A stretch of 22,313 bases of DNA, from IMG/VR virus record IMGVR_UViG_3300007735_000488, positions 1-22,313 of that record. One strand, given 5' to 3'. Below the pieces are notes generated by a model. The model saw only the letters and a list, made by a program, of their open reading frames with translations. It was not told where the DNA came from and ran no database searches. The translations under genes and the position numbers were made by a program. Shown piece by piece: positions 1 through 10,576 of this stretch. The DNA is from a virus. The first letter of the stretch is position 1. Every line of letters begins with the position of its first letter.

Positions 1-1
1 A

Positions 2-691
2 AATGTTGGTGGTGCAGAGGTAGACAGCGCATATATTTCTGCTAATCATGTGATTTTTCAAGGAAATAATATTATTAATTCGGGAAATGTGGGATTAAAG
101 GGATCTTGTGTAAAAAAATCAATAACATGTAAAGGAAATAATATAAATGGTACTAGAACATCACCAGGAATTCTTTTAAAAGGAAGAAGCAGTTCTCATT
201 TAGAGTGGAATGGATTGTGTGAGTACATTGATGCTTCAGACAATACAGTTAATAATGGAGTTTTTACAATAAATTATTCTTTAAGTTCTGGTTCACTTTC
301 GGATTATAGTTTATTTTATTTTGATTCTGCAGTCTTTAAAAATAATGTAATGGGCACAGATGCAAAAACATTTATAGTAAATTCCAATCCTGGATTTTTA
401 TTAAACGAAAAAATAACAGGAAATGATTCTGGGGCAATAGCAACAATTAACGCTTTTCAGGGAATTACACAATTTGGTATAGGGGTAACCAATTACAGTG
501 GTTCCTTCACGACAAATGAAATTATAACCGGAAATATTTCTGGAATAACTACAATTTTACAAGGAATAACATCTACTCATAAATATGGTTCTTTTATTTT
601 TTCTGGTAATAATTTGTGGAGTGGAAATAATGCTTGGTGGAGTGGTTTTACCTTAACTATTTCTTCTGTAACCAACAAAAATAACTTATAA
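2..691 (+). CDS. Beta-helix-like virion/fibre protein, C-terminal part (5' end outside window)
   Basis: The frame is open to the left edge of the window, so this is the C-terminal 229 residues of a longer protein; the first in-frame start-like codon, GTG at 50, is probably internal. The visible N-terminal part has short Asn/Gly-rich turns with regularly spaced hydrophobic pairs (HVIFQGNNIINSGNVG, then CVKKSITCKGNNINGT), as in right-handed parallel beta-helices of phage tailspikes. Further on an imperfect repeat appears twice (LLNEKITGNDSGAIATI and TTNEIITGNISGITTIL), a motif type common in phage structural proteins. It ends in a Trp/Asn/Gly-rich stretch. No catalytic residues can be identified. 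The DNA is very AT-rich: 15 of 60 bases are G or C in the line starting at 361. The next gene begins 1 base after the stop. A role in a tail fibre or spike is inferred from fold style and neighbours. Confidence 0.6.
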   Translation, partial: NVGGAEVDSAYISANHVIFQGNNIINSGNVGLKGSCVKKSITCKGNNINGTRTSPGILLKGRSSSHLEWNGLCEYIDASDNTVNNGVFTINYSLSSGSLSDYSLFYFDSAVFKNNVMGTDAKTFIVNSNPGFLLNEKITGNDSGAIATINAFQGITQFGIGVTNYSGSFTTNEIITGNISGITTILQGITSTHKYGSFIFSGNNLWSGNNAWWSGFTLTISSVTNKNNL

Positions 692-692
692 A

Positions 693-2342
693 ATGAAGGT
701 AAAAATAAAAGAAAATATTAGTTTATTAAACGCCAAATACCAATATGTTAATGGTGAAAATATTTTTACTTTAAAAATTACAGACAAATACAAATGGTTA
801 ACACTGCCTGTAAAAATAACACCAATAAAAGTAGACAATAAAACAGAAAATTTAGAATGGATAGAGTATCCAGCAACGTATTCTTACGTTTTATTAAATA
901 GTATAACCAATCCTAAAAGTATTAGTGTAAGTGTTAACGATTTTGGTTGCTTGGTTACAAATGAAGGCAAAGTTGTGTGTTTTGGTAATAACGATAAAGG
1001 GCAATGCTCTATACCAGAACAAATAAAAACACAAAATGTAAAACAAATTTCTTGTGGGTATAATCATACCGTTGCTCTTTTAGAGAACGGTCAAATTATT
1101 GGTTGGGGAGCTACCGGTTCTGGTGTCGGTCAATACGGTACAGAAACAATAATGGGGCAAATTAGTGCAGCAGGACTAACTGTAAGTAAAATTGATGCCG
1201 GTGCAGAACATGCTCTTGCTTTATTGAGTAATGGTGATGTGGTTGCGTGGGGTAAAAATGAAGCAGCACAATTAAGTGATACCGACAAGTATTGGACCTG
1301 GCCAGAATATATAAATCCAGGATGGGCTGGAGGATACCATCCACAAAGTAATGAAGGATTTAAGTACTATTCTGATCGATCCGCAAGACCAAACAGCGAT
1401 GGTAGTGGAAGGCTGTATCGGTGTGGTCCTTCTTACGACAATAAACGACATAATGGTTGTGAATCACTAAACAGATCAATACTGCCTGAACATTATTTAT
1501 GGACGCCTGCAGGAATAACGGTTTATCCTTGGGCATACGTAGACGCTGCTGCTCCTAATGCATGGGAACCTACTACTGGAGCACCATACGATTATCAGTT
1601 TTCAAGAGCTACAACAAACGATCCAACTAATATAAATTACGGAGGTGGTGGTTGGACCGGAGCAGCAGGCAGCACGTCTGCTATGGGATACTCTTTTAAA
1701 AAATACACAGATATATCTGCTGGTCGATCCCATAATTTATTGTTAGCGACAGACGGAAAGATAGAATTGTGGGGAGATAATTTTTACTATAACGTGTCTG
1801 GTAGCGGAAGCCATAGTTTGGCTGCAGCCAGAAATTGTCCTTACGGATTATGTTATAGAAGAATAGGTTCAGGTTATGGTGGTTACGACACTAATTTAGG
1901 TATAACAATAGATTACGGAGATAATAGTGCACCAACAGTTAAAACGTTTAAAACTACCGCAAATTCTGTAAGCAAAATAGCCACTTCTTACTATGGAAAC
2001 ATGGTTATAAAATCTGATGGTACTGTTTTTGCTTGGGATAGAAACGAATGCGGTGAATGTACAACTTTAAATTCTGTTACAGGAGTTACTTTTACGTTTA
2101 TTAATGGAGCGTATCGTCACAATCTAGGTATTGGAATTACCGGCAGTTTACATATTTCCGGCTGTTGGGTTGGTGAAGATGATGGTGGAATAACTTCTCC
2201 ATATAAACCGTCTGTTGGGTCCAATACATATCAATGGGCTGGAGGTAGTCGTGATTGGAGTGCCGGTGTTTTGACGGAAGGGACTGTGGTTTTCTGGGGT
2301 CAATCTATTTCTAAAATTAAAGGATTTACTTTATTTAATTAA
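693..2342 (+). CDS. RCC1-type beta-propeller protein, probable fibre/adhesion protein
   Basis: A 549-residue protein with repeats of the RCC1/BLIP-II type, in which a hydrophobic strand, a His or equivalent and a 'G.v..WG.n' strand recur. Blades are visible near residues 78-105 (LVTNEGKVVCFGNN), 117-147 (CGYNHTVALLENGQIIGWG), 165-194 (AGAEHALALLSNGDVVAWG), 338-363 (AGRSHNLLLATDGKIELWG), 427-455 (MVIKSDGTVFAWDRNE), and degenerate ones near 471-487 and 509-536 (GVLTEGTVVFWGQS). That makes about seven, the usual number for an RCC1 propeller. Residues about 197-336 form an insertion between blades 3 and 4. The first 75 residues are a separate N-terminal domain. The start lies 1 base after the previous stop, with no clear Shine-Dalgarno sequence. 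RCC1 repeats normally mediate protein binding; a receptor-binding or decoration role here is inferred from the neighbouring fibre genes. The 5' part is far more AT-rich than the 3' part. Confidence 0.8.
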   Translation: MKVKIKENISLLNAKYQYVNGENIFTLKITDKYKWLTLPVKITPIKVDNKTENLEWIEYPATYSYVLLNSITNPKSISVSVNDFGCLVTNEGKVVCFGNNDKGQCSIPEQIKTQNVKQISCGYNHTVALLENGQIIGWGATGSGVGQYGTETIMGQISAAGLTVSKIDAGAEHALALLSNGDVVAWGKNEAAQLSDTDKYWTWPEYINPGWAGGYHPQSNEGFKYYSDRSARPNSDGSGRLYRCGPSYDNKRHNGCESLNRSILPEHYLWTPAGITVYPWAYVDAAAPNAWEPTTGAPYDYQFSRATTNDPTNINYGGGGWTGAAGSTSAMGYSFKKYTDISAGRSHNLLLATDGKIELWGDNFYYNVSGSGSHSLAAARNCPYGLCYRRIGSGYGGYDTNLGITIDYGDNSAPTVKTFKTTANSVSKIATSYYGNMVIKSDGTVFAWDRNECGECTTLNSVTGVTFTFINGAYRHNLGIGITGSLHISGCWVGEDDGGITSPYKPSVGSNTYQWAGGSRDWSAGVLTEGTVVFWGQSISKIKGFTLFN

Positions 2343-2345
2343 TGT

Positions 2346-3716
2346 ATGGACAAATTTCAAGACTATTTTAGAAAAAATTTAGGCCAGATTACAGAAGAAA
2401 AAGTAATTCCAGTTGTAGTTTCGCCCAATCCAAATCCGGGTTTGCGTGGGCCTATAGGACCTATGGGTCCTCCTGGCCCGCAGGGACCTCCAGGAGAAGA
2501 CGGATGGGCTGGCCCTAAAGGAGATAAGGGCGACCAAGGTTCTGTTGGTCCTATTGGCCCCATGGGACCACAGGGACCACAAGGACCTAAAGGAGACAAA
2601 GGTGAACCAGGAGATGTGGGATGGCCCGGAGACAGGGGCGAACCTGGAGTTCAAGGGCCAAAAGGAGACAGGGGAGATACTGGAGAACGCGGTCCACAGG
2701 GTCCTATTGGTCCTATAGGACCCAAAGGAGAACCTGGTATACCTGGTAAAGACGGAAAACCAGGACTTAAAGGAGACCGTGGTGACCAAGGAATTCCTGG
2801 TCCGGAAGGGCCAAGAGGAGAACAGGGTCCTGCTGGTCCCGTTGGTCCTAAGGGGCCCAAAGGAGAACGTGGTCCCAAAGGCGACTCTGGAACACCCGGT
2901 CCTCAAGGTCCTAAAGGAGAACCCGGAGACCGTGGACCCAAAGGTGAGCCTGGAGAACCGGGCCCCGTTGGTGTTGTACAAGCAGAATTTCCATTAGTTC
3001 TAGAAGACCAGACCCTTTCGTTTGATGGATCTAAATTTAAAGAAGAGTTAACCAAACTCGTAAAAACTAAACTAGACGCCCAGACGGTAGCACAAAACTT
3101 TAGTTGGTTAAACACCGGTTCTGTTGGTGGTGGTGCCGTAGGTGTGTACCACGAAAGTGCTCGTGTAATTAAATCTGTTAACGATTTAAATTTCAAGGGC
3201 AGCAGTGTCTCCATTGTCAGAAAAGGCAAACAGGTTGATGTGAGTGTACGTGGCACTGGTATAGTGTTTACGTACGCAGAAGACCCACCAGCAAGCGGCG
3301 TATCCATGGGTGATCGCTGGATGGACTCAGATACAGGAGTGGAATACGTATGGGTAGACGATGGCAACAGCTCCCAATGGATTCAGCCAACCAACACCGC
3401 ACAAAACGCAACGTCTAAAATTTCTATACTGGAAACCACATCCATCACTGGTGCCACATACTCTGCAACACCTTTAGACTACTATATTGGTGTGAGTTAT
3501 GCTGGTCAGTCTATGATTACCCTTCCAGTAAATCCTGAAACCGGTCGTGAAATAGTTGTAAAAGACGAATCAGGTCATGCAGGAGACAATATCAATCGTT
3601 GGATTACTATTTCTGGTTCCGGTTCAGACAAGATAGACAATCAAGACACCGCAGTACTTAACATAAGTAACGGTGCACTACAGTTCATATACAACAACGG
3701 ATGGAGAATCATATGA
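2346..3716 (+). CDS. Collagen-like virion fibre protein
   Basis: A 456-residue protein. Residues 1-31 form a leader, probably an attachment segment. Residues 32-211 are 60 consecutive Gly-X-Y triplets without a break, rich in Pro at X or Y and in KGD/KGE/RGE pairs that stabilise triple helices through salt bridges. Residues 212-456 form a globular C-terminal region with a Trp-containing stretch ([18 protein letters not shown]) and a beta-rich end ([18 protein letters not shown]) of a kind seen in phage structural proteins. Collagen-like tracts occur in phage tail fibres and normally trimerise, so a trimeric fibre shaft with a distal or proximal head is the best reading. The start has no clear Shine-Dalgarno sequence. 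The stop TGA overlaps the start of the next gene (ATGA), implying translational coupling. Gly/Pro codon bias gives this gene higher GC than its upstream neighbours and creates spurious antisense open frames. Confidence 0.88.
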
Positions 3717-4948
3717 GTTACTTGTTTAATAATAAGGTTGGTTTTGTTGATAATGCAGTGGACTCGTTTAATCGTTTACGAACGTCAACACCGTTTACCC
3801 TGTTTGACAGCCAACACCGTTACAAGATTAACGATAAATGGGATACTTTTGGTGTGACCGGCGGAACCGCAACATACGCACTAAACGAAAGTGCAGTTAA
3901 ATTAACCGTAGGAACTACTCTGGGCAGCAAGTGCACCCGTGAAACTAAACGCGTATTTCCGTATCAACCCGGAAAATCTTTACTGGTCTTAAACACGTTT
4001 GCCATGAATACACCCAAAGACGGATTACGTCAACGTGTAGGTTATTTTGGAATTACTGGAGGAGCTACTGCAGGAATTCCGTACAACGGAATTTTCTTAC
4101 AACAAGACGGACTAACACTTTCTTTGGTTATGCAGTCTGCTTCACTAAACACTACCACAACTGTAAACCAATCAGACTGGAACGGAGACAAGTTTGACGG
4201 TACTGGGGCGTCCGGTAGAACAGTAGACGTTACTAAAGCAAACATATTTTGGGCAGACATAGAATGGTTAGGTGTTGGTGATGTGCGTACCGGATTCTTT
4301 GTGGACGGAAAACCGGTGATTGCACACACATTTCATAACGATAACATAAATCCTTCAACATACATGACTACGGCTGTATTGCCTATTCGTTACGAGATAA
4401 CCAACACCACAGCTCAAGCTGCAGGCAGCACAATGACCCAGATATGTTCTAGTGTGATGAGCGAAGCTGGCTACGAAGGGTTTGCCCGCCGTTTTAATGT
4501 TACACACGACGGAGCAACCACTAAAACATTAACTGTAGCAGGAACACAGTATCCTATTATTGCGTTACGTCTTGCTCCAGACCGATTGGATTCGGTAATT
4601 GTTCCGTCCAATATTAGTACCATAGTTCAAGAAACTACAAACAATAAACCGGATACTGTTCAGTATCGTATCTTATTAAATCCTGAAATAACAGGTGGAA
4701 CATGGGAAACACATTACAGTGGAAACGTACAGTACAATAAAACAGCAACCAGTATAACCGGAGGTACCGATATTATTGGTGGCTACATCAGCAGTAGTGG
4801 AGCGTTTATTTTAGACGATGTAAACAGCTTTAATTTCCAGTTAGGCCGAACACAAACCGGTGTTAGCGATGTTATAGCATTTACTCTTACTCCCATAAAC
4901 GCCGGTTCACAGATATGTGCAGATTTCTCTTGGTTTGATATCGTATAA
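3713..4948 (+). CDS. Putative virion structural protein, 411 residues
   Basis: The chosen start at 3713 forms an ATGA overlap with the collagen-like gene and has GGAG at 3703-3706, six bases upstream; an in-frame ATG at 3701 would leave no such ribosome binding site. I do not recognise a named family. The protein is rich in Thr, Gly, Asn and Val with alternating hydrophobic residues, as expected of beta-structured virion proteins. It contains a jelly-roll-like middle (residues about 20-220) and a C-terminal section ([15 protein letters not shown], then [20 protein letters not shown]) resembling conserved C-terminal domains of structural proteins in marine T4-like phages. There is no signal peptide or membrane segment. 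The stop codon TAA lies inside a TATAAATA late promoter octamer. A fibre or baseplate-periphery role is inferred from context only. Confidence 0.72.
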
Positions 4949-4964: not shown

Positions 4965-6614
4965 ATGCCCCTAGATTTTCCATCAAATCCTGCAGTAAAT
5001 GAACAGTACGTGTACGCTGGTCGTACATGGGTATGGAACGGAGCCGCTTGGGATTCGTACAATCCCGGAATAACCGCGTACGTTTCCAGACTAAATGGAT
5101 TTACAGGTGGAGTAACTCTGGCAGAAGGCTCAAACGTAACTATATCGTCGGCCAATAATATAATTACTATTTCTTCATCTGGCTCTGTTGGAAGCTCTGG
5201 TGTTTCTAGTTTTAACGGACTGACTGGTGCGGTTACAGGAGTTGGGTCGTTTAATGGTCTAACCGGTGCTGTTACAGGAGTTACCACCTCTACATCTAAC
5301 AGGTTTACAGCCACACAGATATTTGCTGCAGGTCTTACCGCATCAGGAATAACTACACCCAACGTGTATCCACCACCTACTGGCACTCTTGTTTTAGGTG
5401 TTCCTAGTTCTGCTACTAACATAACTGTGAACGATTCTCAAGAAACAGTAAGTATAATAGCAGGATCTCAACTTTTAATACAAACAGCTACCTCTGTTAC
5501 TGATGCTTTTAGTGTTAGTACTGATCAAACTGTTGCGGTTCCGTTTACTGTTTATACTGACACTACTGGATCTCAAAATGCTGTAGAAATAGTAGACGAA
5601 TCTTCTAATGTTCTGGCAGGAATAACACCTAAAGGTGTTGCATTTTTTAACAGAGGATTAACCGGATCTGGCCTTACATTGATTGGTAATGGTCTGATAA
5701 CAGGATCGCTTGAGGTTGACGGTACTCTGATATTAGGTAGCGGTCAAGGTATAACAGGAGCTGTAACTTCGTTTAATAGACTAACAGGAGCAGTATCAGG
5801 TGTTACTCAGATAAATGCTGGTTCTGGCATTAATATTTCTGGTACCACTAATGTTACTGTAACCAATATTGGTGTTACAGGATTTAACGGAGCAACCGGA
5901 AACGTTACAGGAGTTACTGGAGTTGTGGCAGGTACTGGTATTAGTGTATCCGGAACAACACGCCCCACAATCACCAATACTGGTGTGCAAACCTGGAACG
6001 GATTGACAGGTGCTGTAACCGGTGTTACCACTTCTGTAGCTAATACATTTACTGCGCCTCAAACATTTGCTAGAGGAATAACACTCACCACACCAGATAC
6101 TAGCACAGTACCATTAGTTATATACAGTGATACCTCTTCTATTACAGATACAATACAAATTTATGATGAATCTAATAATTTAGGATTATATTATAACCTA
6201 ACTTCTGGTTTGGTTGTAAATTCAACTATATCAGGAACACAGCTTATTTCTACCAGTTCCATACAGTTTGGTTCTCAGTTTGTATGTAATTTAAATACAG
6301 AAAGAACACCATTAACCACAACAGCTGCAAACCAAACCATCAGTACCACTACAGTGATTGTTGAATCTGAACCTATTTTTCGTACTATTGAATTTACTGT
6401 TCAAGCGTCCACAACAACAGCATACGAAACATTAAAAATTACTGTAATTCACGACAACACCAACACATACAACACTCAGTACGGAGTAGTTCGTTCTGGT
6501 GGTAGTTTAGGCACATACACCACAACTCTTTCTGGTGATAATTTATTATTACGAGTAACCCCCACAACAGCAAACACAACGTATACAGTTGTTAAAAAGA
6601 TATTAGAAGTATAA
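4965..6614 (+). CDS. Tail fibre-like protein with FNGLTGAV-type repeats
   Basis: A 549-residue protein. The N-terminal domain (MPLDFPSNPAVNEQYVYAGR, then WVWNGAAWDSYNP) is the 'FPSNP...W.WNG.AWD' type found at the start of many phage fibre and structural proteins, and is paralogous to the start of the gene at 7175. Six copies of an FNGLTGAVTGV-like motif follow (one as WNG, others degenerate), separated by beta-rich Gly/Thr/Ser stretches. Two of them begin a longer module ending in NTFTA.Q.F..GI. The last 100 residues or so (from about RTPLTTTAANQTIS) form a domain resembling the C-terminal domain of structural proteins in marine T4-like phages. The gene has no evident Shine-Dalgarno sequence but is preceded by a consensus late promoter. 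It is probably a homotrimeric fibre or a fibre-associated subunit; its exact location on the virion cannot be decided here. Confidence 0.82.
   Translation: MPLDFPSNPAVNEQYVYAGRTWVWNGAAWDSYNPGITAYVSRLNGFTGGVTLAEGSNVTISSANNIITISSSGSVGSSGVSSFNGLTGAVTGVGSFNGLTGAVTGVTTSTSNRFTATQIFAAGLTASGITTPNVYPPPTGTLVLGVPSSATNITVNDSQETVSIIAGSQLLIQTATSVTDAFSVSTDQTVAVPFTVYTDTTGSQNAVEIVDESSNVLAGITPKGVAFFNRGLTGSGLTLIGNGLITGSLEVDGTLILGSGQGITGAVTSFNRLTGAVSGVTQINAGSGINISGTTNVTVTNIGVTGFNGATGNVTGVTGVVAGTGISVSGTTRPTITNTGVQTWNGLTGAVTGVTTSVANTFTAPQTFARGITLTTPDTSTVPLVIYSDTSSITDTIQIYDESNNLGLYYNLTSGLVVNSTISGTQLISTSSIQFGSQFVCNLNTERTPLTTTAANQTISTTTVIVESEPIFRTIEFTVQASTTTAYETLKITVIHDNTNTYNTQYGVVRSGGSLGTYTTTLSGDNLLLRVTPTTANTTYTVVKKILEV
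5250..5357 (+). repeat. Fibre module copy 1 (FNGLTGAVTGVTTS...)
   Basis: Encodes the 36-residue module FNGLTGAVTGVTTS, then NRFTATQIF and a GLTASG end. It is preceded at 5214 by a shorter FNGLTGAVTGV copy. It matches copies at 5994, 7322 and 8714 at the protein level and partly at the DNA level. Confidence 0.8.
5994..6101 (+). repeat. Fibre module copy 2 (WNGLTGAVTGVTTS...)
   Basis: Encodes WNGLTGAVTGVTTSVANTF followed by TAPQTFARGIT, the second full copy within the gene that begins at 4965. It shares WNG and TTSVAN with the copy at 7322. Confidence 0.8.
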
Positions 6615-7174: not shown

Positions 7175-10100
7175 ATGCCTATAAACTTCCCGTCCAATCC
7201 AACCACCGGTCAAGTCTACGAGTATCAAAATATTCGTTGGCGGTGGAACGGTTCCGCATGGGACAAGTATGAAGTATTTACGTTTAACGGACTGACAGCT
7301 AATGTGGAAGGTGTAGGTTCTTGGAACGGCCTTACCGGAGCAGTAACTGGAGTTACAACCAGCGTTGCAAACATTTTTGTCCCTCTTCAAACGTTTAATT
7401 CTGGTATTAGTGCATATGGTGCAAGCTTTGATGGTGGTCCTGTAACGGTTCAAGGAAATATTGTTTGGCACGCAGGAAACGATGGAGCCACCTCTGCACT
7501 GGACGCAGGACTGCTGTACGGCGTGCAAGGCAACATTTACGCTTCCAGTCTGAGCACAGGTCTGCTGTACGGTGGATTGCTTAGTATTAACGCAGGCAAC
7601 ACTGCCACTTTTGACATCACTGCAGGTTCAGGATATATTGTTACTACCGGAGCAACCTTTACAGCAGAACCAAATCCTGTGATTACACGAGTAAACTGGA
7701 CCGCCAAAACAGGTGTGACACTTTCAGGTTTAAGCTCACAAGACACCACGTGGGTATACGTTGACAGCACCGGAACCTTACACCAACAAGCCGCATTCTT
7801 TACAGACGATCAAGTAAACAGCACTATTGCGTTAGGTGCACTAGTTCATCCAACCCGTTCGTACATTTCGTTGGCAAGAACTATTCCCAACGTGTCGTAT
7901 GCCACCGACAAACAGTACGAACAGTTTATTCGTGCGTTTGGTCCAATGAAAGTAAGTGGCCACACCATTCAAGCCAATGGCGGAAATCTTAGACTAAACC
8001 GTACTAGTGGTACTGCATTTGTTCTTGGTCGTAACTACCCCAACGATCCAAACAATCCCAGTGTGGTTTCAGATATTGCTAAAACAGACGCTGAAATTTG
8101 GCGTTACTACCGTGGAATAACCGCAGGATCTTTCGTTACAGTAACCGGTATAACCACAGGCATTGATCCTACATCATATGATGACGGCACAGGAATTCTT
8201 CACGCAGTTTCACCGTCTACTCCATTTACCATTCAACGAGTATTCTTTTTTCCCGGAACACCCAACGTTTTAGGTGTGTATTACGGGCGATCACAATACG
8301 CCAGCCTTTCAGAAGCAGCAAACAATATCCATCTTGAAGATTTTACTGAAATCACAAACACCGCAACTAACGCAGTATTGGTAGCGTTTATTATTGTGAA
8401 ATATAACGTAACTAATCTAGACACAGCTATTGCTGCAAACAATGCTCGTATTATTCAAGCAGGACAGTTCCGCACCACATCCAGTGGTGGTGGTAGTGTT
8501 GCTACCAATTTAGACTCTTTATCGGACGTTGTTATTAGTGGTGTGCAAGACGACGACGTGTTAATTTACGATACGGCCACTAGTGAATGGTTAAATACAC
8601 CACTTTCACATATCGGAGTAACTAGGTTTAATGGGTTAACGGGTGCTGTTACTGGAGTTGGGTCGTTTAACGGTTCTACAGGAACTGTGGTATTCTCCGA
8701 TTATGTTTCTACTTTTAATGGACTAACAGGTGCTGTGTCTGGTGTTACTACATCTGCGGCCAATACATTTACAGCTCTTCAATCATTTAATGCCGGTATT
8801 AGCGCATCTGGCGGTATAACTTTTGTTGGAACCGTTAACGGATTCCGATTTACATCAGGAAACGGTTTAACATTTGATAATATGATTATAGGAGCCACCG
8901 GTGCGGGAATTGCTTTAACCACCGGCACAAATAATACACTATTAGGTCCTCGTGTAGGTGATGTGTTAACTACAGGTAGTAGAAACGTTGCTATAGGTAC
9001 TGATGCGTTGGGCGGGACTACTGGAGCATCCGATACAGTAGCTATAGGATATAATGCTCTGTTAGTAAATAGAGCAGACGGTGCGGTAGCTATAGGATCC
9101 AATGCACTAAAAAGTTTAACAACGGGAACGGAAAATTTTGCATTAGGTTTTAATGCTGGAGCCGCAATCAATACGGGCAGTAGAAACGTGGCAATGGGTG
9201 CGTATGCGTTAGCACAAGCCACAACAGTAAATGATTGTGTGGCAATAGGACGTTATGCTCTAAACTATAAAACTGGTAGTGGCGACCATTGTGTTGCTAT
9301 AGGTCCCGGTTCTATGTTATACGCAACATCGGCGTCTAATTGCGTTGCTGTTGGTGGTGCTTCACAAAGAGGTAGTGATCTGGTAACAGGTACGTATAAT
9401 TCGTCTATCGGTTACGGGTCAATGCTTAATATAATAGGCGGTAACTACAATACCGCCGTAGGTTACAATTCATTATACAGTTTAACCGGCGGTTCAGAAA
9501 ATATTGCTTTTGGTGGCGAAGCTTTGGTGGCTTTAACAAACACAGGAAAAAATACTGCTGTAGGTCAAGTTGCTTTACGAAACATTACCACAGGTAATTC
9601 TAATACTGCTATAGGATATGGTGCTGGTCAATACAAAACTTCGTCAGATACCAATCATACTTTATCTGGTGATGCAAACGTGTATATTGGGTTTCAAGCT
9701 AGAGCCAGTGGAGACAATGTTACTAATGAAGTAGTTATAGGCGGCAATAAACCTGTTGGTTCTGGTTCTAATACTACAACTATTGGTAATTCTTCTACAA
9801 CATTAACTCAACTGTTTGGCAAAATTAGTACTGCCCAAGGTATCAGTGCTTCTGGTGGTATCACATTTCAGGGTACTATTTCACTAAACGGACAAACATT
9901 TACAAATGTGGTTTCTTCTGTGAATGGTTTAACAGGAGCACTTGCTAATCTATCTGCACCGGCGGGGCTCACTTCATCTACTGCGGTATATACGTTTCCT
10001 AACGGAGTGACTGCTTACAGTGCAAGTAGCACACCGTATTACACTTCTCCGTATTTTGGTTCTCGTTCTGTTAGTACTAGCACACTAACACCAAACAGAA

Positions 10101-10576
10101 CTTATTTTGTTTTACATCAAGCACCACGAGCGATATCTTTGAAGAATATAAGAATAGCCGCAAATTCGCCTTCAGTTGCTATGAACTTATATCTAAGTGT
10201 ATGGACTGTGAATCCTTTAACAGGGTTACCACAATCTAGATTGTACGTATCTGGAGGACTAACGGCCAATGCTAGTACTTTTAACTATGTAACAGTAACA
10301 AATGCTTCAGGATTAGTTAGCGTGCCTGCAGGTCCATTTTATATGGCAGTAACAGTCAGTAATTCGCTTCCCACGTACGCACACAGTAACGATAGATCGA
10401 TAAATCTTTACGGATCCGATAATTACGTAACCGGTTATCAGAATTACGCTCCTGTTTTAGACACTGATGGATTTACTGCCCCAACCAGTATCACTCAAGC
10501 AGGAACAACATTTGCTTTCGTTAATTATATTAATGCTGTGGCACCTACTCCAGTGATGGAGTGGAACCACGTATAA
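7175..10576 (+). CDS. Large tail fibre with YadA-type beta-roll region
   Basis: At 1133 residues this is the largest protein in the window. Residues 1-33 are the 'FPSNP...WRWNGSAWD' N-terminal domain shared with the gene at 4965. FNGLTGAV-type motifs occur near 37, 50, 485, 498, 514 and 916. Residues about 110-435 form a beta-rich domain I cannot assign. Residues about 445-475 hold LDSLSDVVISGVQDDDVLIY, a linker type common in fibres. Residues about 585-880 hold about 16 short repeats ending in AIG, AVG or ALG (RNVAIGTDAL, TVAIGYNAL, AVAIGSNAL), the hallmark of the left-handed beta-roll of trimeric YadA-like adhesin heads. Residues about 935-1133 are a C-terminal beta domain. No S74-type intramolecular chaperone with catalytic Ser/Lys is evident. 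The likely role is a trimeric receptor-binding fibre, with the next gene a candidate chaperone. Confidence 0.85.
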   Translation: MPINFPSNPTTGQVYEYQNIRWRWNGSAWDKYEVFTFNGLTANVEGVGSWNGLTGAVTGVTTSVANIFVPLQTFNSGISAYGASFDGGPVTVQGNIVWHAGNDGATSALDAGLLYGVQGNIYASSLSTGLLYGGLLSINAGNTATFDITAGSGYIVTTGATFTAEPNPVITRVNWTAKTGVTLSGLSSQDTTWVYVDSTGTLHQQAAFFTDDQVNSTIALGALVHPTRSYISLARTIPNVSYATDKQYEQFIRAFGPMKVSGHTIQANGGNLRLNRTSGTAFVLGRNYPNDPNNPSVVSDIAKTDAEIWRYYRGITAGSFVTVTGITTGIDPTSYDDGTGILHAVSPSTPFTIQRVFFFPGTPNVLGVYYGRSQYASLSEAANNIHLEDFTEITNTATNAVLVAFIIVKYNVTNLDTAIAANNARIIQAGQFRTTSSGGGSVATNLDSLSDVVISGVQDDDVLIYDTATSEWLNTPLSHIGVTRFNGLTGAVTGVGSFNGSTGTVVFSDYVSTFNGLTGAVSGVTTSAANTFTALQSFNAGISASGGITFVGTVNGFRFTSGNGLTFDNMIIGATGAGIALTTGTNNTLLGPRVGDVLTTGSRNVAIGTDALGGTTGASDTVAIGYNALLVNRADGAVAIGSNALKSLTTGTENFALGFNAGAAINTGSRNVAMGAYALAQATTVNDCVAIGRYALNYKTGSGDHCVAIGPGSMLYATSASNCVAVGGASQRGSDLVTGTYNSSIGYGSMLNIIGGNYNTAVGYNSLYSLTGGSENIAFGGEALVALTNTGKNTAVGQVALRNITTGNSNTAIGYGAGQYKTSSDTNHTLSGDANVYIGFQARASGDNVTNEVVIGGNKPVGSGSNTTTIGNSSTTLTQLFGKISTAQGISASGGITFQGTISLNGQTFTNVVSSVNGLTGALANLSAPAGLTSSTAVYTFPNGVTAYSASSTPYYTSPYFGSRSVSTSTLTPNRTYFVLHQAPRAISLKNIRIAANSPSVAMNLYLSVWTVNPLTGLPQSRLYVSGGLTANASTFNYVTVTNASGLVSVPAGPFYMAVTVSNSLPTYAHSNDRSINLYGSDNYVTGYQNYAPVLDTDGFTAPTSITQAGTTFAFVNYINAVAPTPVMEWNHV
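7322..7429 (+). repeat. Fibre module copy 3 (WNGLTGAVTGVTTS...)
   Basis: Encodes WNGLTGAVTGVTTSVAN followed by IFVPLQTFNSGISAYG. It sits near the N-terminus of the 1133-residue fibre and is closest in sequence to copy 2 at 5994. Confidence 0.8.
8714..8821 (+). repeat. Fibre module copy 4 (FNGLTGAVSGVTTS...)
   Basis: Encodes FNGLTGAVSGVTTSAAN followed by TFTALQSFNAGISASGGIT. Its last nine residues (ISASGGITF) recur after the YadA-like region near 9841, so that region is bracketed by similar sequence. Confidence 0.8.
8927..9815 (+). repeat. YadA-type beta-roll repeat region within fibre
   Basis: Encodes about 16 short, degenerate repeats with a conserved small-hydrophobic-Ile/Val/Leu-Gly core (VAIG, AVGYNSL, TAIGYG) at intervals of roughly 14-24 residues. 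Such repeats form the trimeric left-handed parallel beta-roll of YadA-like adhesin heads. The region ends with TTTIGNSSTTLTQLFGKI, a terminal pattern often seen after such repeats in phage proteins. Confidence 0.8.

Follow-up and report, generated by a model that had tools for sequence, protein, structure and literature searches.

A putative phage tail adhesin with an exchangeable RCC1-like propeller head and a conserved inserted element

The open reading frame at positions 693 to 2342 of the window (the whole stretch of DNA analysed, 22,313 bases, IMG/VR record IMGVR_UViG_3300007735_000488) encodes a protein with a short anchor followed by an RCC1-like propeller. Judged by comparison with the DNA of a near-twin contig, the whole propeller is a cassette swapped between phages behind that anchor, an exchange that probably changes binding to the host cell. 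A long aromatic-rich insertion in the propeller had been put forward in a preliminary description as a strong candidate for the receptor-contacting part. We find that this insertion, striking as it is, is conserved and characterises the subfamily recovered here, and is not merely a hypervariable loop; the best evidence for host contact lies in the swap of the whole domain and not in the insertion. The reading that we favour, with a rough probability of 0.55, is that the protein is a virion adhesin composed of an anchor, an exchangeable propeller head, a conserved cap and exposed variable stretches.

The record encodes a family B DNA polymerase, a RecA-like gene, a DnaB-type helicase, a dUTPase, ThyX and part of ribonucleotide reductase. 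The best listed matches of the polymerase are T4-like cyanophages (46.6% identity to S-SSM4) and so, judged by this gene, the window represents part of the genome of a T4-like tailed phage. At 3701-4948 it encodes a structural protein that is closest to those of Puniceispirillum phage HMO-2011 and cyanophages. A separate gene at 7175-10576 encodes a 1133-residue protein with repeats and a PHROG tail spike match (8e-28); we take its repeats to resemble the NVAIGxxAL head repeats of trimeric adhesins. The features of the region under study are these (L001 is a stretch of a 44.5-kb contig):

1 to 691, + strand: upstream gene, open-ended; 97.7% DNA identity to L001 over window positions 1-834
693 to 2342, + strand: open reading frame of the putative adhesin, 549 residues
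693 to 833, + strand: N-terminal anchor module, residues 1-47; 89% identical to L001
835 to 2392, + strand: exchanged cassette; DNA without detectable similarity to L001, flanks 97.7% and 93.2% identical
870 to 1280, + strand: propeller repeats 1-3, residues 60-196; Pfam RCC1_2; block pLDDT 70-93, first block 58
1281 to 1700, + strand: insertion, residues 197-336; alignments A3 and A6; no family at E<=0.1
1422 to 1424, + strand: Cys 244; invariant in 16 aligned sequences
1458 to 1460, + strand: Cys 256; aligned in 14 of 16 sequences
1575 to 1607, + strand: core TGAPYDYQFSR, residues 295-305; 8 of 11 positions invariant (n=16), the best 11-mer of the domain
1701 to 1811, + strand: propeller repeat 4, residues 337-373; highest mean pairwise identity of the segments, 0.65
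1812 to 1955, + strand: second long inter-blade loop, residues 374-421; 34-60 residues across 16 sequences
1956 to 2300, + strand: propeller repeats 5-7, residues 422-536; from alignment and model
2346 to 3716, + strand: collagen-repeat tail fibre gene after the cassette; Pfam Collagen 1.9e-30, PHROG tail fiber 3.1e-43

The propeller gene adjoins the open-ended gene on one side and the collagen-repeat tail fibre gene on the other, and genes downstream of the collagen gene have PHROG matches to virion structural and tail proteins. When the window was compared with L001 by blastn, the DNA was 97.7% identical over 1-834 and 93.2% identical over 2393-3241, and no match was returned between 834 and 2393 (1.56 kb). 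The transition is sharp: in steps of 20 bases, 17-20 of 20 agreed for 541-820, 12 at 821 and 2-7 from there up to 980. This places the edges of the cassette near codon 47 of the propeller gene and near codon 16 of the collagen gene after it (5143-6802 in L001), where in L001 the same anchor of 47 residues leads into an unrelated domain, about 524 residues long. It is because identity runs at about 98% to codon 47, is undetectable for 1.56 kb and then returns at 93% that the whole propeller is regarded as swapped; this clean swap was seen in one close pair, the window and L001. The gene therefore has the two features by which we would recognise a tail adhesin, a place beside tail fibre genes and an exchangeable distal part, the exchange being seen in that one pair. 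Modular exchange of tail fibres is common. The strong similarity between the window and L001 ends again at 3241 and resumes at 5247-6068, so mosaicism in the fibre region extends beyond the cassette. The L001 homologue of the upstream gene comes after an open reading frame that we presume, from its look, to be pectate-lyase-like.

The anchor is found with other heads elsewhere. A scan with the C-terminal part of the collagen gene supplied the best 80 of 86 relatives, and among the open reading frames of those loci a three-anchor profile built without L076 found L110 (the L001 contig, twice) and L076 (1.4e-12); with L076 added to the profile, L074 and L137 were also found (2.3e-05). Anchor-bearing genes that precede the collagen gene in other contigs have other C-terminal domains: in addition to L001, a domain of the L001 type occurs in the protein of L076 (61.8% identity), and in that of L074 such a domain (67.0%) is combined with a module that is 66.5% identical to the one following the propeller in L006. 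Neither the L001 replacement domain nor its L076 relative nor the L074 protein has a significant Pfam or PHROG match, the best of the sub-threshold matches being that of L074 to DUF4454 (E 0.054). The contig names of L001 and L074 carry the same sample number. This propeller was absent from the + strand open reading frames of the best 80 of 86 collagen-gene loci, which makes the window the only case here of this propeller head before this collagen gene. Shared modules of about 470 and 520 residues occur in different combinations behind an anchor or after the propeller (L074 2240-5359, L006 3-7520, L001 5001-6713). A small gene at 2288-2680 of L001 has a diverged version of the anchor (43% identity, E 0.005) and a C-terminal part that resembles, by eye, the end of the L006 protein.

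The exchanged head belongs with the RCC1-like propellers. The protein matches Pfam RCC1_2 in five stretches (E 1.7e-32, 110.8 bits against a cut-off of 22) and Pfam RCC1 (28.6 bits against 21.7), so that several RCC1 repeats lie above the family cut-off; WD40_RLD scored 103.1 bits, under its cut-off of 150. An AlphaFold2 model of residues 60-549, made from a 16-row alignment, had a pTM of 0.73 and a mean pLDDT of 64.0, with blade blocks mostly at 70-93, the insertion at 30-49 and the loop at 374-421 at 44-54. A model from the single sequence (pLDDT 31.9, pTM 0.21) was discarded. Seven sets of three propeller strands are predicted, and it is in this model only that the seven-bladed fold is seen. 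Its closest relatives by VIA-align included UVR8 (Z 29.1, rmsd 3.3, 303 residues aligned), the phiKZ virion protein gp131C (Z 16.9, rmsd 4.6, 279 aligned) and the CV39L lectin (Z 16.4, rmsd 4.0, 251 aligned). The insertion separates the last strand of set 3 (domain residues 124-128) from the first strand of set 4 (279-284), and alignment and model thus agree on the position between repeats 3 and 4 that had been proposed for it. The preliminary description had allowed that the insertion might fold as further blades. We set this possibility aside: all seven strand sets are present without the insertion, so extra blades are not needed as far as the model goes. The structure prediction that had been called for resolved the propeller, then, and left the insertion at low confidence.

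As had been described, the insertion is a Tyr-, Trp-, Gly- and Pro-rich stretch unlike RCC1 repeats, with cysteines at 244 and 256. Tyr and Trp make up 15.0% of it and 7.6% of the remaining protein, and a level of 15% was reached by none of 818 windows (140 residues, step 5) from ten other open reading frames of the record, where the maximum was 10%. Residues 197-336 matched no Pfam family at E<=1, and the 16 members of the insertion family had no match in Pfam, PHROG or NCBIfam at E<=0.1. Among solved structures the insertion-only profile A6 matched no RCC1-type chain at E<=1; its sole match, the plant protein 9x2r (E 0.059), was judged to be due to chance, as was a match of profile A4 to midkine (E 0.24). 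Comparison of the window and L007 insertions with cultured phages returned only chance-level matches (E 0.6 to 10), which fell on portal, hypothetical and unannotated places. With complete domains (window, L007 and L010) as queries, the matches in cultured phages lay almost entirely outside the insertion. Nor did the insertion profile give anything significant with the RCC1 proteins of five cultured phages (PS6, S-SRM01, LIBA6276, BUCT-ZZ01 and SCTP-2, the protein of the last being cut by the end of the locus), which were drawn from seven matched records, among them NC_070963, which duplicates the phage of MW015081. When bacterial and archaeal genomes were scanned with A3 and with A4, pattern matches were obtained in 13 and 41 stretches, and no relative. 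Among the titles and abstract beginnings listed in searches of an open-access library, none describes this insertion; in a 2026 paper on Ostreococcus viruses, the passages with 'RCC1' are culture-collection numbers. With nothing significant in Pfam, PHROGs, NCBIfam or solved structures, the TGAPxDYxFxR element is, by these searches, a candidate new domain.

Relatives are confined here to IMG/VR contigs. The insertion used as a query found ten of these. Profile A2, which represents blades 4-7, starts at nt 1704 and leaves the insertion out, found 16, namely the same ten and six new ones, and searches with the whole domain and with the insertion plus blade 4 both returned the 16 contigs of A2. 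Profile A5 (blades 1-3) found 14 of the 16; it overlaps the insertion by eight residues and its search pattern spans that edge, so that it is A2 and not A5 that provides an independent test. The insertion is present at the same place, between repeats 3 and 4, in all 16 contigs recovered by A2. Because the sequences behind A2 had first come to light via the insertion, and because the subfamily's own signatures served as search patterns, this statement holds for the subfamily that was found, and a nearby branch without the insertion could have been missed. The propeller stands nearly alone in L007 (an open frame of 554 residues) and L013 (678 residues) and forms part of frames reaching 3,253 residues in the remaining relatives. 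Neighbouring genes have virion matches in four of the seven relatives scanned (a baseplate wedge protein in L004, a tail protein in L006 and a major head protein in L017 and L022), and those of L003, L009 and L024 have none.

Alignment A3 consists of 16 rows, the window and 15 distinct relatives; L011 was left out because its DNA is identical to that of L010. The insertion is 140 residues long in the window and 143-201 in the other sequences, and 14 of its 140 positions are invariant (C244, W291, T295, G296, A297, P298, D300, Y301, F303, R305, N315, W321, S329 and G332), compared with 10 of 137 in repeats 1-3 and 24 of 200 in residues 337-536. The 11-mer TGAPxDYxFxR that starts at 295 has more invariant positions than any other 11-mer in the domain. 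Mean pairwise identity is 0.36 for residues 197-290 and 0.53 for 291-336, with values of 0.41 in repeats 1-3, 0.40 in the loop at 374-421 and 0.54 in repeats 5-7. Segment lengths (94-124 residues for 197-290, 30-37 for 291-321 and 15-41 for 322-336) describe a near-fixed core flanked by two stretches of variable length. Every one of the 16 insertions has two or four cysteines; in L017 and L022 the second is at a place other than that of Cys 256. The alignment that had been recommended as a check on variability therefore returned a divided answer, with variation in the flanking stretches and near constancy in the core, and the outcome that had been named as telling against receptor contact, presence and conservation in all homologues, is largely what was found.

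These data can be accommodated in the following scheme. Residues 1-47 would anchor the protein, we infer to a tail fibre or the baseplate, and residues 60-536 would form the exchangeable head, a seven-bladed RCC1-like propeller of the subfamily that carries 140-201 extra residues between blades 3 and 4. Within this inserted element the near-constant core (Trp 291, TGAPxDYxFxR, Asn 315 and Trp 321) may pack against the propeller near blade 4 as a permanent cap, leaving stretches 197-290 and 322-336 exposed; together with the loop at 374-421, these would be the surface most likely to contact a ligand. A disulfide between Cys 244 and Cys 256 is possible within stretch 197-290. Packing, exposure and the disulfide are guesses, because the insertion blocks were modelled at a pLDDT of 30-49 and the second cysteine is aligned in only 14 of 16 sequences. 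Changes in specificity would come mainly from replacement of the whole head by recombination in the anchor, and less from point change in the insertion. Of this scheme, the conservation and position of the element, one clean cassette swap and the genomic setting are what the data show directly.

The first alternative is that the insertion is itself a rapidly changing receptor-binding tip, with the propeller as a passive scaffold. Its aromatic richness, its range of lengths and the low identity of residues 197-290 are in keeping with this, and the pairwise comparisons speak on both sides. Amino acid differences (uncorrected p values) were in significant excess in the insertion in L010/L012 (31/185 versus 29/345 in the rest, p 0.006) and L024/L026 (33/193 versus 25/328, p 0.001) and significantly fewer in L007/L008 (10/176 versus 43/338, p 0.014); the other four of the seven pairs showed no difference, namely L004/L005 (28/156 versus 86/355, p 0.13), window/L003 (69/138 versus 153/318), L007/L009 (49/176 versus 99/334) and L017/L022 (73/163 versus 147/356). 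The two pairs with an excess count against the explanation that we prefer and are a better fit to a receptor tip. NG86 dN/dS in the insertion was 0.07 in L007/L008, 0.13 in L004/L005, 0.14 in L010/L012, 0.16 in L007/L009, 0.34 in window/L003 and 0.45 in L024/L026, the values for L004/L005, window/L003 and L007/L009 being rough because dS exceeds 1. They are higher than in both blades 1-3 and blades 5-7 in three of the six pairs (L010/L012, L024/L026 and window/L003). The diversifying change that had been envisaged is not borne out by these ratios. The segment with the highest dN/dS in L004/L005 and L007/L008 is the loop at 374-421, which the preliminary description did not include. Given also that the insertion is present in every contig found, that it holds the most invariant 11-mer of the domain and that exchange of the whole domain is the larger change, we regard a fast-evolving tip as unlikely. 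The variable stretches of the insertion may nevertheless contact a ligand, as this part of the original proposal would have it; the pair results are mixed (higher dN/dS in 3/6, amino acid excess in 2/7 and deficit in 1/7).

A structural or oligomerisation element that has no part in ligand binding, for example one that trimerises the propeller or packs it onto the next module, would account for a strongly conserved core beside the blade of highest identity in a domain whose neighbouring modules differ from contig to contig. Two stretches of the insertion vary in both sequence and length, however, which is not what one expects of an interface, and we regard this explanation as improbable.

Still less probable, in our estimation, is that the insertion supplies the missing part of a carbohydrate-active site on the propeller and that the domain cuts or modifies glycans of the host surface. 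The invariant Asp 300, Tyr 301, Arg 305, Asn 315 and Trp 321 would suit such a site. When Pfam was run on the long open reading frames of 7 of the 15 distinct relatives (L003, L004, L006, L008, L010, L014 and L017), the propeller-bearing protein had suggestive matches in four: heparinase-like in L003 and beta-helix in L004, L006 and L010, with a fibronectin match and a weak accessory-domain match to GH85_C also in L006. The proteins of L008, L014 and L017 matched RCC1 only, however, the insertion has neither a family match nor a match to solved structures above chance level, and a glycosidase is named in none of the 50 listed fold-match titles. A broader idea, which we advance as a doubtful one, is that the TGAPxDYxFxR cap is an undescribed domain family, which together with the edge of blades 3-4 might form a site for glycan recognition or processing, in heads that are shuffled with large modules behind anchors; if so, one recombination near codon 47 would change the whole surface chemistry of the fibre in uncultured T4-like and other tailed phages.

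That the protein acts inside the cell and is not part of the virion is highly improbable: three of its four PHROG matches are filed under DNA, RNA and nucleotide metabolism, which favours this idea by name and counts against our preferred reading, but the fourth is a tail protein (1.4e-06), and the gene lies directly before a collagen tail fibre gene and is exchanged as a cassette behind an anchor. The virion adhesin thus remains our preferred reading, and near-twin phages (98% identical on one side of the cassette and 93% on the other) with unrelated heads allow the role of the head in the choice of host to be addressed directly.

RCC1-like propellers usually, though not by definition, have consecutive repeats without a large insertion. 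The propeller described here resembles UVR8, RCC1, the HERC RLDs and BLIP-II in its seven repeats, its fold (Z about 24-29) and its match to Pfam RCC1_2, and differs in that its insertion profile matched no chain of this type. All 16 aligned sequences depart from the usual layout by an insertion of 140-201 residues between repeats 3 and 4, and for this reason the propeller is a subfamily within the RCC1-like fold and not a typical member of it. Among cultured phages, RCC1 proteins of Marinobacter phage PS6, the Synechococcus phages S-SRM01 and BUCT-ZZ01, Clostridioides phage LIBA6276 and Salicola phage SCTP-2 share the repeats, and three of the five are beside or near a gene annotated as a tail fibre, but none of the five has a significant match to the insertion profile. 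Passages of PMC4901313 describe the C-terminal domain of phiKZ gp131 (PDB 4gbf) as a seven-bladed virion propeller at the periphery of the baseplate, with a suggested but unconfirmed role in receptor binding or cell degradation. It has the same number of blades as our model (Z 16.9) and a profile match of 1.4e-05 that covers only positions 428-507 of 518; the putative place of our protein in the virion is taken from genome context. The propeller of the phi11 receptor-binding protein Gp45 is described in the same source as the putative sugar-binding part of a tail adhesin; it is five-bladed, unlike the seven-bladed propeller here, and the likeness is one of description only. Propellers have accordingly been proposed as receptor-binding parts in both phi11 and phiKZ, as passages of PMC4901313 and PMC6115969 state. 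In T4-like marine myophages, according to parts of PMC7029224, a hypervariable host-recognition cluster contains tail fibres and glycosyltransferases, and collagen repeats occur among the structural proteins; neither 'RCC1' nor 'propeller' was found in the main text of that paper. The window shares with those phages a T4-like polymerase and a collagen-repeat gene. The protein fits a known kind, that of host-recognition clusters and phage propellers, and what distinguishes it is that the inserted element is conserved and that the head as a whole is cleanly exchanged.
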